DNA of 64,000 nucleotides from positions 1-64,000 of the IMG/VR virus record IMGVR_UViG_3300049846_001717. The stretch is one strand, 5' to 3'. Shown piece by piece: positions 1,767 through 47,330 of the stretch. The notes under the pieces are model-generated. The model was not told the DNA's origin and ran no database searches. It was given only the letters and a program-made list of their open reading frames with translations. Source of the DNA: a virus. The position numbers were made by a program, and so were the translations under genes. Position 1 is the first letter of the stretch, and each line of letters starts with the position of its first letter.

Positions 1767-3365
1767 TTACTGGCTCTGTTGAATCAATTTCATTGCGGCT
1801 TGGTGCGCGGCATGATCAGCCGGATATTTCAGTGCCGACTTGACGAGAATGTCATTGCCCGTGTCAGGGTTTTTGACTTTCTGGTTCATTACGTCCGTGT
1901 CGGAGGTAATGCTACCTGTTTGTTTCTCGTATTCCTTCTGAACAATGACCAACGCTTCATCAGGAGTCAATCCTGGATTTGCATACCACGCGTCTTCCAC
2001 AGCACTCAATAGATTCTTGATGATTGGACCCGGTTTGATACCCAAGGTTCGCATGATATCATTGCCATTGATAGGCAATGTGGGCTTATTGGCGGACAAG
2101 GCCATACTGGACCGTAGAGTGTCCATGCGGTGCTTGATGAATTCGATTTGGTTGGGCATGGAAGCATGTGCTGAATGCGATACATTGTCCGCTTGCATGG
2201 TTTTCAGCGCCGCATCCAAATCATCACCGAGGTCGGCCATGAACTTTCGGATGGCCTTGTCACTGATACCCGTGCCATCGGGACCGGCGGGCTTGAGTCG
2301 CATGTGTTCTTTGACAATTTTCGCCACCGAATTGATTTGATCCAACGGATATTTCAATCGGCGCATAGCCTCATTAGCAATTTCCGATCCCACATCCTCG
2401 TGTCGATAGAAATGAACACCGGTTTCATCCTCACTTTTCGTTTGAGGTTTGCCAATGTCATGAAATAACGACGCCAATCGGGCAGTGATGTCCGGTTCTG
2501 TGTTCTTCAACACTTTCATGATGTGATTGAACACATCGTCATCATGATACGCATTTTGGGACACACCCACGCACGCGTTCAATTCAGGTAGAACGTGTTT
2601 GTTCAATCCGGTAAAGACCAGCAACTTGATGGCCTTATCCGGTGCATCCGTCATCAACATCTTGTCCAATTCTTCTCGTACACGTTCTTTTGAAATGGTC
2701 TGTAACATGTCAGCATTCTTTCGTAACGCCTTGACCATGGAAATGGGCATCTTCCAATTGTATTTTACAGCAAATCGAATGGCCCGCAACATACGAAGCG
2801 GGTCATCTTTGAACGTAGAATCAGGATCCATCGGTGTTCGAACGATACCATCACGAATGTCGCTCAATCCCATACCCGTGAGATCCAAAACTTCGCCAGT
2901 GGACAGATTTTTGAAGAGTGAATTGACCGTCAAATCTCGACGAAAGGCATCTTCTTTCAGATCGGCGAATATTACTTCAGGCTTTCGGGAATTCTTTTCG
3001 TATGTCTCACCACGCGTCATAACCGATTCGATATCCACGTTGGATAGGTCTACCCCATTGTGTGTGACACCCCGAAGATTGAATTTTGCCGTGCCAAATC
3101 GCGGAAATACGACCGGATTGGCACCTTCGCGGAACGCCCCCACACGGCGGGTGATCCAATTCGCAAATGCAATACCACCGTCGGGCATAGGAATAACGAC
3201 ATCGATATCCTTAACGGGTTTGCCGAGAATTTGGTCGCGCACGGCACCACCGGCCAGCATGACCTTTCCTTCGTACGGAGTACCTTTCAATATCTTTGAA
3301 AAATAGTCCAACGCGGCGTCTTCTTTAGACGCATAATTCTCCAGCAACAATCGAAATCGGATCAT
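1767..3365 (-). CDS. cca: CCA tRNA nucleotidyltransferase with HD domain
   Basis: A 532-residue protein. The class-II nucleotidyltransferase head shows LAGGAVRDQILG near 37-48 and the metal-binding DIDVV just after. RRDLTVNSLF follows, and DPLRMLRAIRFA marks the RNA-binding neck. An HD phosphohydrolase domain with LFHDIGKP and later RHED comes next, the layout of bacterial multifunctional CCA enzymes. It adds or repairs the 3' CCA of tRNA. No phage tRNA that I folded encodes CCA, so this enzyme would be needed to mature the array at 26-45 kb. The C-terminal 40 residues hold the VKNPDTGNDILVKSALKY module shared with the next gene. Confidence 0.93.
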   Translation of the reverse strand: MIRFRLLLENYASKEDAALDYFSKILKGTPYEGKVMLAGGAVRDQILGKPVKDIDVVIPMPDGGIAFANWITRRVGAFREGANPVVFPRFGTAKFNLRGVTHNGVDLSNVDIESVMTRGETYEKNSRKPEVIFADLKEDAFRRDLTVNSLFKNLSTGEVLDLTGMGLSDIRDGIVRTPMDPDSTFKDDPLRMLRAIRFAVKYNWKMPISMVKALRKNADMLQTISKERVREELDKMLMTDAPDKAIKLLVFTGLNKHVLPELNACVGVSQNAYHDDDVFNHIMKVLKNTEPDITARLASLFHDIGKPQTKSEDETGVHFYRHEDVGSEIANEAMRRLKYPLDQINSVAKIVKEHMRLKPAGPDGTGISDKAIRKFMADLGDDLDAALKTMQADNVSHSAHASMPNQIEFIKHRMDTLRSSMALSANKPTLPINGNDIMRTLGIKPGPIIKNLLSAVEDAWYANPGLTPDEALVIVQKEYEKQTGSITSDTDVMNQKVKNPDTGNDILVKSALKYPADHAAHQAAMKLIQQSQ

Positions 3366-26431: not shown

Positions 26432-27124
26432 TCAACCTTTGTTGGCAAGTAGCTTGTCCAACCGCCACCAGTACGTTTGATATTCGCCCTTAATTTGCAA
26501 CTTCTGCTTGAACAACGGATAGTCGGCGGCGTACTTATCGTTCTTTTCGCCTTCCGTTGCGTTGGCCAATCGATCACAGAGCTTTACGAATACAGCTTCA
26601 CGATCGGTATTAATTCGATCATAATAGCTGGTATTGGATTCCTTCGGTCGTTTGGTTACAAGGTCAACGATGTGTGCCACTTTTGGACCAAATTGTTTTT
26701 CCAATTGTTCCTTAGTGATGGATGTATCTTCCAACACATCATGCAACAATGCGGCCTGTCGTGACGCTGTTGTGCCGCCCTGTGCTAGTTGAAATACTTT
26801 GAGCAAATGATATTTGTATGGCTTATTTCCATACATCTGATCGCCATGGGCTCTGAGCGCAAAGTTGAGAGCCGACCCATAGTTTTGCTGTAGGTGACTG
26901 TCCGGAGCTTTCCCGGCTCGTCCTGATCTACCCGATGATCTATGTTGTGGATGATCGGGGTCCGTTTCTTTATCAAAGATATACTCTAACTTCCCATCCA
27001 CCGTTCGGGCCACGATCTCACCAGATGAATTGGCCCAATAACCCCACCCCTTACTGATCAAGCCACGCTTTTTAGCCTCGTCGCTGGCAGTAGATTCATT
27101 GAATATTTCAAGTAGTAGGATCAT
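26432..27124 (-). CDS. RelA/SpoT-type HD hydrolase (possible ppGpp hydrolase)
   Basis: A 230-residue protein. Residues about 85-200 match the hydrolase half of RelA/SpoT or MESH1: FALRAHGDQMYGNKPYKYHL, AALLHDVLEDT (the HDxxED motif), YDRINTDREAVFVKLCDRLANAT. No synthetase domain is seen. It may lower host (p)ppGpp during infection. The N-terminal 75 residues hold a separate domain (GWGYWANSSGEIVARTVDG). It lies between two serine tRNAs. Confidence 0.78.
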   Translation of the reverse strand: MILLLEIFNESTASDEAKKRGLISKGWGYWANSSGEIVARTVDGKLEYIFDKETDPDHPQHRSSGRSGRAGKAPDSHLQQNYGSALNFALRAHGDQMYGNKPYKYHLLKVFQLAQGGTTASRQAALLHDVLEDTSITKEQLEKQFGPKVAHIVDLVTKRPKESNTSYYDRINTDREAVFVKLCDRLANATEGEKNDKYAADYPLFKQKLQIKGEYQTYWWRLDKLLANKG

Positions 27125-29530: not shown

Positions 29531-29602
29531 AGCTCGTGGCGAGGCTTGAACTCGCTTCTTTCGTTTTAGAGACGAAGGCACCGGCCGATATACCACACGA
29601 GC
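29531..29602 (-). tRNA. Amber suppressor tRNA, anticodon CUA
   Basis: All four arms fold: acceptor GCTCGTG/CACGAGC, D-arm, anticodon stem TTCGT/ACGAA with the 7-nt loop CTCTAAA, short variable loop and T-arm GCGAG/CTCGC. U33 is kept and positions 34-36 read CUA, pairing with UAG. N73 is U. The first 20 bases resemble the neighbouring tRNA-Val(GAC). The amino acid it carries cannot be told. Confidence 0.9.
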
Positions 29603-34607: not shown

Positions 34608-35990
34608 CTACATCACCGCGTTTTTGGCAAGCCCCGGTCGATTTTTCAGTTTATTCCGAAATCGAAATATTGGAGTTTGCTGTTCCACCGGGGTCGGTTC
34701 AACCGTGGTCGGTGGGGTTGCCACGAACTCGACGGGTTGAAGGGCTTCCGTTACCGTATCTCGCATCATTATGAACAGTTCACCCTGTGCGGCCGCCATG
34801 CTGATCTCTCGTTCCTTGTACTTCTGGCTGAACCGTTCTGCGCCGTCGGTATCACCAGGAAAGAACTTCAAATAGAGCTTGACGAGTTGTTGCCGTGATG
34901 CGTTGTCCACCAGAATCCGTCGGTCAATGCGACCAGGTCGAATCAACGCCGGATCCAAATGTTCGATATGGTTGGTGGTCATGATGATGATACGGGGCGA
35001 ATCGGACACCATAACACCATCGATGGAATTCAAGACTTCACTGAACGAGGCCGTGCGCTTCTTTGGCGCGTCCTCTTTCTTATCACCAGAAGAGGGTTCG
35101 GGCTCTTCGTTCATCAAAATCGTTGACGACCGCGAACTCATACCCAACAACGTGGCGTCTACATCTTCAATCAAGAGGATGCTATTACCCGGCAAACTAC
35201 TCAACGACACATCCATTTTCATCATCTGTTCCGACGTATATCGGCAGATGGTCATATTGAGTTCAGATGCCAACGTTCGAACCAACGTGGTTTTACCGTT
35301 GCCCGGCGGGCCATATAGGATGTAGCCGCGGCGAAATGGCACACCCAATCCCAAATACCAATCTTTCTTTGCAAGAAACTGACGAATGTCTGTGGCCAAC
35401 ATGTCGATGGTATTGTTGTCATCGATGACCGTTTCCTTGCTTCGTTTTGCGGTATACCCGACGACCACCCATCCGTTTTGTGACGTCCATTGCATGACCG
35501 GAACCGTGTCCGTTCGCAACGATGCATTGTATGCATCCGTCATGTGTTTGAGAAACGATTCCACAATCTTTCGACTGTTGCGACCCGTTCGGGCCAGATG
35601 GATCTTTCGAACTTCCATTGTCGATTCTTTATTGGCTTTTTCCGAGGAGAACGACACGAAGATTCGTTTTCCTTCATGAAGAATCTTGAACGAACCGGTT
35701 TTTGGACGAAGACGGGGCGTATAGACGTAGGTACCGTTTTTCTGTCGTGTGTAATCCCATGTGGTGTTCATCACGTTGATCCGTCGATCCGTGTGATGAT
35801 TATCGAAATACCAATTGACGACTACGCTGACTTCCAGTTCGGTCGAAAATCGAAAGTACGAGAATGCTCTAGACCAATATTTGCTAAACGTCGATTTTGC
35901 CAGTGTAACGGCCGTACCCATCAATCCAAGAACAAAGCCACCTTGGAACAGTGGATTCTGCGTCAATCCTTCAAATAACGGTAACGTCAT
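34608..35990 (-). CDS. BCS1-like AAA+ ATPase with N-terminal membrane helix
   Basis: A 460-residue protein. A hydrophobic helix near residues 18-33 (GFVLGLMGTAVTLA) is followed by a BCS1-type middle domain and a AAA+ core: Walker A YGPPGNGKTTL, Walker B ILLIEDVDA, and TTNHIEHLDPALIRPGRID (sensor/second region of homology). BCS1-type ATPases translocate folded proteins in mitochondria. Homologs occur in large phages, with unknown roles. The C-terminus is Pro-rich. Confidence 0.85.
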   Translation of the reverse strand: MTLPLFEGLTQNPLFQGGFVLGLMGTAVTLAKSTFSKYWSRAFSYFRFSTELEVSVVVNWYFDNHHTDRRINVMNTTWDYTRQKNGTYVYTPRLRPKTGSFKILHEGKRIFVSFSSEKANKESTMEVRKIHLARTGRNSRKIVESFLKHMTDAYNASLRTDTVPVMQWTSQNGWVVVGYTAKRSKETVIDDNNTIDMLATDIRQFLAKKDWYLGLGVPFRRGYILYGPPGNGKTTLVRTLASELNMTICRYTSEQMMKMDVSLSSLPGNSILLIEDVDATLLGMSSRSSTILMNEEPEPSSGDKKEDAPKKRTASFSEVLNSIDGVMVSDSPRIIIMTTNHIEHLDPALIRPGRIDRRILVDNASRQQLVKLYLKFFPGDTDGAERFSQKYKEREISMAAAQGELFIMMRDTVTEALQPVEFVATPPTTVEPTPVEQQTPIFRFRNKLKNRPGLAKNAVM

Positions 35991-36453: not shown

Positions 36454-36527
36454 CGCCCCCGGCAGGATTCGAACCTGCACTAATGGAGATTAGAAGTCTC
36501 CCTGACTGTCCTGTTGCCGACGGGGGC
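36454..36527 (-). tRNA. tRNA-Arg(UCU)
   Basis: Stem GGAGA/TCTCC and loop CTTCTAA give UCU. The acceptor is GCCCCCG/CGGGGGC and the D-stem is only 3 bp. N73 is G. No CCA is encoded. Confidence 0.88.
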
Positions 36528-37200
36528 TTATTGTAATAGTTCGAGTTGACCTCGGAGTACGTCTTTCAACCGGACTTTCTTATCCGATCGATGATCGGTG
36601 ACGATACCGTCCTGTTCCCGATACGTTCGAATCTTATCGCCTCGCATTCCCGAACCTACAAGCTGTTTGCGGTCACCATCGGCTTGCCGTTTCGATTGTT
36701 CGGCCATATACGTGGCTACTCGATGTTCCAACAGTTCACGAGCAGTACGACGATTCTGATGTTGACTCTTCTCTGCGGCTTTCGCTTCGATCTTTGTTGG
36801 TTCGTGCCGCATGATGACACATGATTCAGTCTTGTTACGATGTTGACCGCCGGGGCCGGAATCCTTAGTGGTAAACGTCGTAATGTCTGATTCCTTCAAT
36901 CGCCATGACGCAGGTTCTTTGATCTCAAAGACGGCTACGGTGACGGTTGATGTGTGAACCCGACCACGACGTTCGGTGGGCGGAATACGTTGCCATCGAT
37001 GACCACCTGATTCATTCATCAATAATCGGAGCTTTGAATCGGTGCCTTCGATGATCAGGTCAAAGACTACCTCGGTTCTCCGAAATCACGGACGCGCCGA
37101 GACGAGAGGCAAACGACAGATAGATGTTGGCTTGGTTGGACACGAGCAGTTTTGCATCAGTGCCACCTTCACCAGGTCGGATTTCTACGAGGTATTTCAT
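36528..37200 (-). CDS. Class-I peptide release factor with prfB-like +1 frameshift
   Basis: Frame 1 starts at 37200 (MKYLVEIRPGEGGTDAKLLV...) and stops at TGA 37060-37062 after 46 codons. Skipping one T of CTT-TGA-C continues in +1 frame as DLIIEGTDSKLRLLMNESGG and ends at 36528, about 223 residues in total. The catalytic GGQ is in SGPGGQHRNKTES, and the recognition segment RIPPTERRGRVHTS has PPT, like RF1's PxT, not RF2's SPF. GAGGT sits 3 nt before CTT, as in bacterial prfB. The N-terminal domain 1 is absent. Confidence 0.85.
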
Positions 37201-37222
37201 CGAAATTCTCATTAAAGGAAAG

Positions 37223-37299
37223 TGCTCCTAGTGGGACTCGAACCCACACTTGACGGCTTCTCGAACCGTTGACTCTGCCTGAGATTGGTCTACAGGAGC
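37223..37299 (-). tRNA. tRNA-Leu(GAG)-like
   Basis: Acceptor GCTCCTG/TAGGAGC, T-arm GTGGG/CCCAC, D-arm GAC/GTC. The best anticodon arm is ACGGT/GCCGT with loop TCGAGAA, so 34-36 read GAG and position 33 is C. The variable loop is short. Other loop alignments are possible, so the isotype is uncertain. Confidence 0.6.
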
Positions 37300-40355: not shown

Positions 40356-40429
40356 TGGACACCACGGGAATCGAACCCGTCACATCGTCATTGCGAATGA
40401 CAATCGCCACCCTTGGTACATTGGCGCCC
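40356..40429 (-). tRNA. tRNA-Ala(CGC)
   Basis: Stem TGTCA/TGACG (one G:U), loop TTCGCAA, anticodon CGC. Acceptor GGGCGCC/GGTGTCC includes two G:U pairs. No CCA is encoded. Confidence 0.85.
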
Positions 40430-40499
40430 GAGCCCGCAACCGGCGATGTCCCGGCGAGTTGACCTCCCTTCAACTCTTTCATGCGGCGGATTATTTCAA

Positions 40500-45707: not shown

Positions 45708-47330
<1,623 letters not shown>

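Follow-up and report, generated by a model that had tools for sequence, protein, structure and literature searches.

Control of bacterial release factor synthesis by recoding has been tied to RF2, because RF2 reads UGA. The stop codon that acts as sensor in the frameshift site of prfB is TGA in 98.6% and TAA in 1.4% of cases, TAG being found in 0 of 8,164 genomes, and programmed frameshifting is absent from the prfA genes surveyed (PMC12421855). The lack of TAG in prfB is expected if the product must read its own sensor. Trapping of release factors by apidaecin leads to pervasive bypass of stop codons (PMC7544508), and for the viral release factor gene R726 of Mimivirus both UGA-C readthrough and a +1 shift have been demonstrated in E. 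coli (PMC3521657). Genes for RF1 and RF2 in huge phages were described by Al-Shayeb et al. (PMC7162821), the main text of which contains no match to “frameshift”. Recoding of an RF1 gene was previously not known, prfB and Mimivirus R726 being the nearest parallels. The gene analyzed here lies in the first 64 kb (termed the window) of a 98-kb virus contig and belongs to a widespread family of RF1-type factors that is apparently undescribed as far as open-access papers go.

Gene layout, shift site and encoded protein

The single release factor gene of the 98-kb record is found on the minus strand of the window at 37200-36528, as two frames of one gene joined at GAGGT-AGT-CTT-TGA-C (site sequence, CCGAGGTAGTCTTTGACCTG; junction sequence, CCGAGGTAGT CTT TGA C). 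The features of the gene and of the tRNAs discussed with it are as follows:

37060..37200, minus strand: N-terminal ORF (frame 0), 46 codons from ATG 37200 to CTT, closed by UGA 37062-37060
36528..37061, minus strand: +1-frame ORF with the codon-recognition and GGQ domains, 177 codons, TAA at 36530-36528
37060..37065, minus strand: shift site CTT TGA, with CTT at 37065-37063
37069..37073, minus strand: internal Shine-Dalgarno (SD)-like GAGGT, predicted duplex −7.3 kcal/mol, core 4 nt before CTT
36975..36983, minus strand: PPT recognition motif (RF1 type, PxT)
36843..36851, minus strand: GGQ catalytic motif
37223..37299, minus strand: tRNA, anticodon GAG by loop position (Rfam RF00005, 45.3 bits; ARAGORN at relaxed threshold only)
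36454..36527, minus strand: tRNA-Arg(UCU), directly downstream of the release factor gene
29531..29602, minus strand: tRNA, anticodon CTA, possible amber suppressor

The frame 0 protein (MKYLVEIRPGEGGTDAKLL...SENRGSL) ends at the UGA and includes the motif EGGTDAKLL, which in RF1 forms the tip of the helix that reads the codon; a second in-frame ATG is located upstream of its start, at 37212. The +1 frame (DLIIEGTDSK...GGHRWQRIPPTERRGRVHTS...GPGGQHRNK...) runs to the TAA. When CTTT is taken as one step, skipping one base, a single stop-free protein of 223 amino acids is obtained.

At 37065-37060, slippery CTTT of the prfB type is followed directly by the rest of TGA, and relatives share the same kind of site, consistent with the proposal of a prfB-style +1 site in the first-pass annotation of this DNA. 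Both site and spacing had been equated there with those of prfB; CTT-TGA-C agrees, whereas the spacing does so only on the assumption that the U of GAGGU takes part in pairing, the GAGG core otherwise standing 4 rather than 3 nt before CTT in the anti-SD register. Among the 60 phage members of the family with a shift site, a GGAGG(T)-like core is positioned exactly 3 nt before CTT in 43 and at 4 nt in the window only. Because the core is displaced by one base from the spacing usual in the family and the predicted anti-SD duplex (−7.3 kcal/mol) is less stable than the one in E. coli prfB (−10.7 kcal/mol), the window site may shift less efficiently. SD pairing is almost absent in shift members L047, L057, L093, and L138. 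Counting both strands, the 64-kb window contains 63 CTTT+stop hexamers, and of these only this site is preceded by a suitably spaced SD-like tetramer; together with the occurrence of the same type of site at the hinge of other members, this argues that the site is more than a chance occurrence. In 60/60 phage shift members CTT immediately precedes the stop, and elsewhere in these genes CTT accounts for 100 of 649 Leu codons. The strongest argument that the putative shift site exceeds chance is comparative.

ARAGORN predicted 47 tRNA/tmRNA genes in the window. The GAG-anticodon tRNA directly upstream of the release factor gene, overlooked by ARAGORN at default settings, would read CUC/CUU, thus the CUU of the shift site; C33 and the lack of a long variable arm make its identity doubtful. 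Competition of the factor with a suppressor for UAG, as suggested in the first-pass annotation, was not borne out: the CTA-anticodon tRNA exists, but there is no sign of UAG as a sense codon in the window's genome, where the open frame is shortest after TAG (median 9 codons, versus 13 after TAA and 19.5 after TGA). CTA-anticodon tRNAs were also observed in the stretches of the relatives L160, L164, L183, and L192, and L184, a 436-kb phage, has two TCA-anticodon tRNAs (called SeC) near a shift-type release factor gene. Elsewhere in the window are a tRNA with a four-base anticodon (acca) called by ARAGORN at 40356-40451 (minus strand), a CCA-adding type nucleotidyltransferase (1767-3365), an HD_4 domain protein (26432-27124), a BCS1-like AAA protein (34608-35990), and a TCP-1/cpn60 chaperonin (45708-47327).

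The 223-residue protein matched RF1 structures in the PDB over its full length (best 3.5e-38; RF1 residues 87-314), RF2 structures at best with 4e-18, and PrfH least (6e-10), the alignment to RF1 beginning at RF1 residue 87 or 113. Pfam detected the RF-1 domain (3.5e-21), and PCRF was matched only at 102-194 of 194; since this is the second half of PCRF, domain 1 is missing. NCBIfam scores were below both cut-offs for the RF1 (prfA) equivalog (185.3 versus 400 and 173.7 versus 423 bits), below that for RF2 (109 versus 370 bits), and far below that for the PrfH equivalog (67.6 versus 166.7 bits). Structure prediction was performed on the readthrough relative L007, 63% identical to the window, in place of the shifted window protein; its model (mean pLDDT 88.7) superposed on RF1 domains 2-4 with TM 0.88 and Z 21.9, showing the predicted fold of the family to be that of RF1 domains 2-4. 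Taken together, these comparisons confirm the two frames as encoding a predicted RF1-type release factor of 223 amino acids, with PPT and GGQ and without domain 1.

The SPF motif of RF2 is absent from all 88 phage members, and the window has PPT. RF1-type Q185 is found in 88/88 phage members, with P-x-T in 79 and P-x-N in 9, as the earlier description of an RF1-like recognition motif would have it. The position of E123 is Asp in 88/88 and that of H197 is Gln in 35/88 (40%), while E. coli RF1, T. maritima RF1, and E. coli RF2, as compared here, have Glu and His; the codon pocket thus departs from that of RF1. The recognition motif, HRWQR[VI]PPTE, does not differ between members with a UGA and members with a UAG sensor. 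Judged by this motif, the product should read UAA and UAG. PrfH (RFH) is a rescue factor for cleaved ribosomes, with RtcB as partner. Assignment of the family to the PrfH-RtcB system was rejected on the PrfH score and on the distribution of RtcB, which was not found in the 98-kb record and occurs in 4 of 35 phage records (31/35 without), never next to the release factor gene.

Relatives and their recoding states

Members were sought with profile patterns for the N-terminal part and a DNA pattern for GGHRWQR[IVM]PPTE, both blind to the recoding site. Viral contigs yielded 88 distinct members, window included: 60 with a +1 shift at the hinge (48 TGA, 11 TAG, and 1 TAA), 27 with an in-frame TGA, and 1 continuous. 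A further 29 came from scanning bacterial genomes, mostly of Myxococcota (binning may have placed phage contigs in some of the MAGs), comprising 20 shift-TGA, 5 shift-TAG, 3 in-frame TGA, and 1 continuous member. Across all 117, a +1 shift at CTT-stop is found in 85 (TGA 68, TAG 16, and TAA 1) and an in-frame UGA without shift in 30. Relatives with one continuous frame had been named in the first-pass annotation as evidence against its reading; recoding at the hinge is required in 115/117 members (∼98%), a count in which divergent continuous members are possibly under-represented, as members were found via conserved motifs. As a control, those canonical RF1 genes from the same scan that were inspected (e.g., L233 and L241) were continuous. 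L263, with a UGA and a second frame break that is probably an assembly error, was excluded.

The continuous relatives are L015, L217 with two more copies in the same Myxococcales MAG (three copies, one counted as L217), and LR756511, so recoding is not indispensable. Among named huge-phage genomes, the shift site is present in LR745208. A single in-frame UGA is found in LR756504, two are found in LR756501 and in LR745206, and LR756502 has only that at the second position; LR756511 is free of any such stop.

Bacterial carriers include Minicystis rosea, on its complete chromosome, and two Nannocystis genomes, each with the shift site. The neighbors are sigma-factor and GDSL-lipase genes in Minicystis and a FemAB-like gene in N. 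exedens, and no phage genes were recognized beside these two copies. Since the bacterial genomes searched also hold full-length RF1-type and RF2-type frames, the family represents an additional factor in its bacterial carriers. A single release factor gene was found in each of the 50 phage records that were searched. In two bacterial contigs, PTH2 (peptidyl-tRNA hydrolase) is encoded near the release factor gene (L275, 5923-6417; L237, 4198-4698), and L275 also has a kinase-phosphatase-RNA ligase (AAA_33, Metallophos, and RNA_lig_T4_1) at 720-2933, an RNA-repair setting.

In phylogenetic analysis the family formed a single clade, from which the two cellular RF1 sequences were separated (support 100). 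Shift, readthrough, and continuous states change ∼9 times, and UAG arises ∼15 times in 16 members, on a quick tree with SH-aLRT support only and uncertain deep branches. The window, a shift member, falls in a well-supported set of 11 rows, 9 of which have an in-frame UGA (support 95; 99 in a smaller tree), indicating that shift and readthrough replace each other. The sensor codon is likewise interchangeable, close relatives that share HRWQR[VI]PPTE having UGA in some cases and UAG in others.

In 11 close pairs, pN was several-fold lower than pS on both sides of the stop, showing purifying selection on both halves of the gene. In all 11 pairs (L016/L021, L002/L004, L044/L046, and others), synonymous divergence before the stop was no higher than that after it, most strongly in readthrough pairs; a signal within the first part of the gene is possible.

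All in-frame phage members use UGA, followed by A in 20, C in 7, and G or T in none. In part of the family this UGA occupies the position of a Trp in cellular RF1 (W144 in E. coli), which makes Trp the likely inserted residue. Use of UGA as a sense codon in readthrough phages was rejected: in the stretches sampled, Trp TGG occurs at a normal 10-19 per 1000 codons, UGA serves as gene terminator, and reading under code 11 leaves the stretches mostly open, consistent with the standard code. Readthrough as an answer to SD-less hosts or phages was also rejected, as the SD excess before genes is equal in both classes (p = 0.68); only a subgroup with two in-frame UGA codons looks SD-poor. Around the in-frame UGA, 12 relatives showed no conserved RNA structure, and 7 gave only a weak distant hairpin. 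The double-UGA subgroup comprises L044, L046, L144, L231, L201, and L202 and includes the 735-kb phage LR756501, most of its stretches showing little SD use; LR756502, of the same subgroup, retains the second UGA only.

What the early stop may gauge

The reading that we favor, and consider reasonably probable, is that of a fail-safe release factor, in which the early stop would gauge termination capacity and the product would add release when that capacity falls. The stop lies inside the domain 2-coding region and would gate synthesis of the factor, and prompt termination there would leave a peptide of ∼46 residues. Upon slow termination, in the window and most members, CUU in the P site would slip +1 to UUU (in the window, U at 37062 would be skipped and reading resumed at GAC 37061), and in sister lineages the UGA would be read through, most likely as Trp, to give the full factor. 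Because shift and readthrough both compete with release factors, output should rise when release factors are short. The UGA sensor of the window would report mainly on host RF2, which the product would relieve only indirectly, by taking over UAA. As the sensor is RF2-specific by known rules, host RF2 would run the loop in the window, as proposed in the first-pass annotation, unless the product reads UGA too. A conflict between a UGA sensor and an RF1-type motif had been pointed out in the first-pass annotation, and it stands, with PPT and Q185 kept and UGA as the stop of the site; UAG, present at some shift sites, is a codon that an RF1 could sense itself. On the motif evidence, either sensor and product are uncoupled or UGA and UAG are both read by the product.

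The main rival to the fail-safe factor takes the second of these options. In a closed self-regulating loop, a factor of relaxed specificity would read UGA, UAG, and UAA and terminate at its own sensor, like RF2 in prfB; any stop would then work as sensor, UGA being commonest because it is the leakiest. Sensor swaps among close relatives with an unchanged motif, and the substitutions at E123 and H197, are consistent with such a loop, which we nonetheless entertain only tentatively since the RF1 determinants Q185 and PxT/PxN are kept and the SPF of RF2 is absent. The broader claim, that large phages and Myxococcota share a bacterial-type factor that reads all three stops (or UGA and UAG) and regulates itself through its own stop, by frameshift or readthrough, is rather doubtful. 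Both mechanisms are low-yield, and overexpressed release factors, RF2 above all, lower the fitness of B. subtilis (PMC12421855), as would suit a passive throttle in which the stop, without sensing anything, holds the level of a toxic extra release factor low and constant. A weak promoter or start would suffice for that purpose, yet 115/117 members keep the stop across changes of mechanism, and UAA, read by both host factors, is found at just 1/85 shift sites; we regard a throttle as improbable.

Two of the possible explanations would dispense with recoding. Were the C-terminal part made as a separate protein from an internal start codon, the GG-x-D helix tip, codon-reading in RF1, would be encoded in the first part and lost from it. 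An in-frame ATG, GTG, or TTG is present in the stretch in 61/87 members, as any reading frame would give, but an ATG with an SD-like sequence occurs in 1/87 and any start with one in 10/87, and the split gene was rejected as very improbable. Sequencing error or a decaying pseudogene might be considered for the window, a single contig, but the same type of site recurs in independent records, among them the Minicystis rosea chromosome and the two Nannocystis genomes, and both halves are under purifying selection; for the family this explanation was rejected, its probability being negligible.

Comparison with known systems

An RF1-type family with UGA and UAG, and frameshift and readthrough, interchangeable at one hinge would separate sensor from product, and it raises the question of what is sensed: the factor itself, the host factors, or slow termination generally. 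The fail-safe reading suggests that large phages and some bacteria hold a third release factor ready for failing termination, and the presence of the family on the chromosomes of cultured myxobacteria opens it to testing.

As compared to RF1 (prfA), the family has PxT, Q185, GGQ, and the fold of domains 2-4 in common but is without domain 1, with E123D throughout the phage members and H197Q in 40%. PrfH is likewise a class-I factor without domain 1, beyond RF1 and RF2, but its recognition motif differs. ArfA (PMC10107115), a backup factor with an mRNA that itself signals when the main pathway has failed, is alike in logic only, being an unrelated protein that senses failed trans-translation rather than slow stop-codon reading.

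The site resembles that of prfB in CTT-TGA-C, an internal SD-like sequence ∼3 nt upstream (in the window 4 nt unless the U of GAGGU pairs), the choice between a short peptide and the full factor, and the preference for UGA. In contrast to prfB, where the site is at codon 25-26 in domain 1 and the product is RF2, it lies here at codon 46-47 in domain 2 of an RF1-type factor without domain 1; UAG occupies 16/85 shift sites, as compared to 0 of 8,164 in prfB (PMC12421855), and sister lineages have an in-frame UGA. Mimivirus R726 and Megavirus mg280 also encode a viral class-I release factor that needs recoding, by UGA-C readthrough and a CUU-UAG-C or CUU-UAA-C shift (PMC3521657). These factors are of the eukaryotic/archaeal type, unrelated as proteins to the phage family, and combine both events in one gene, whereas here one event replaces the other between lineages.
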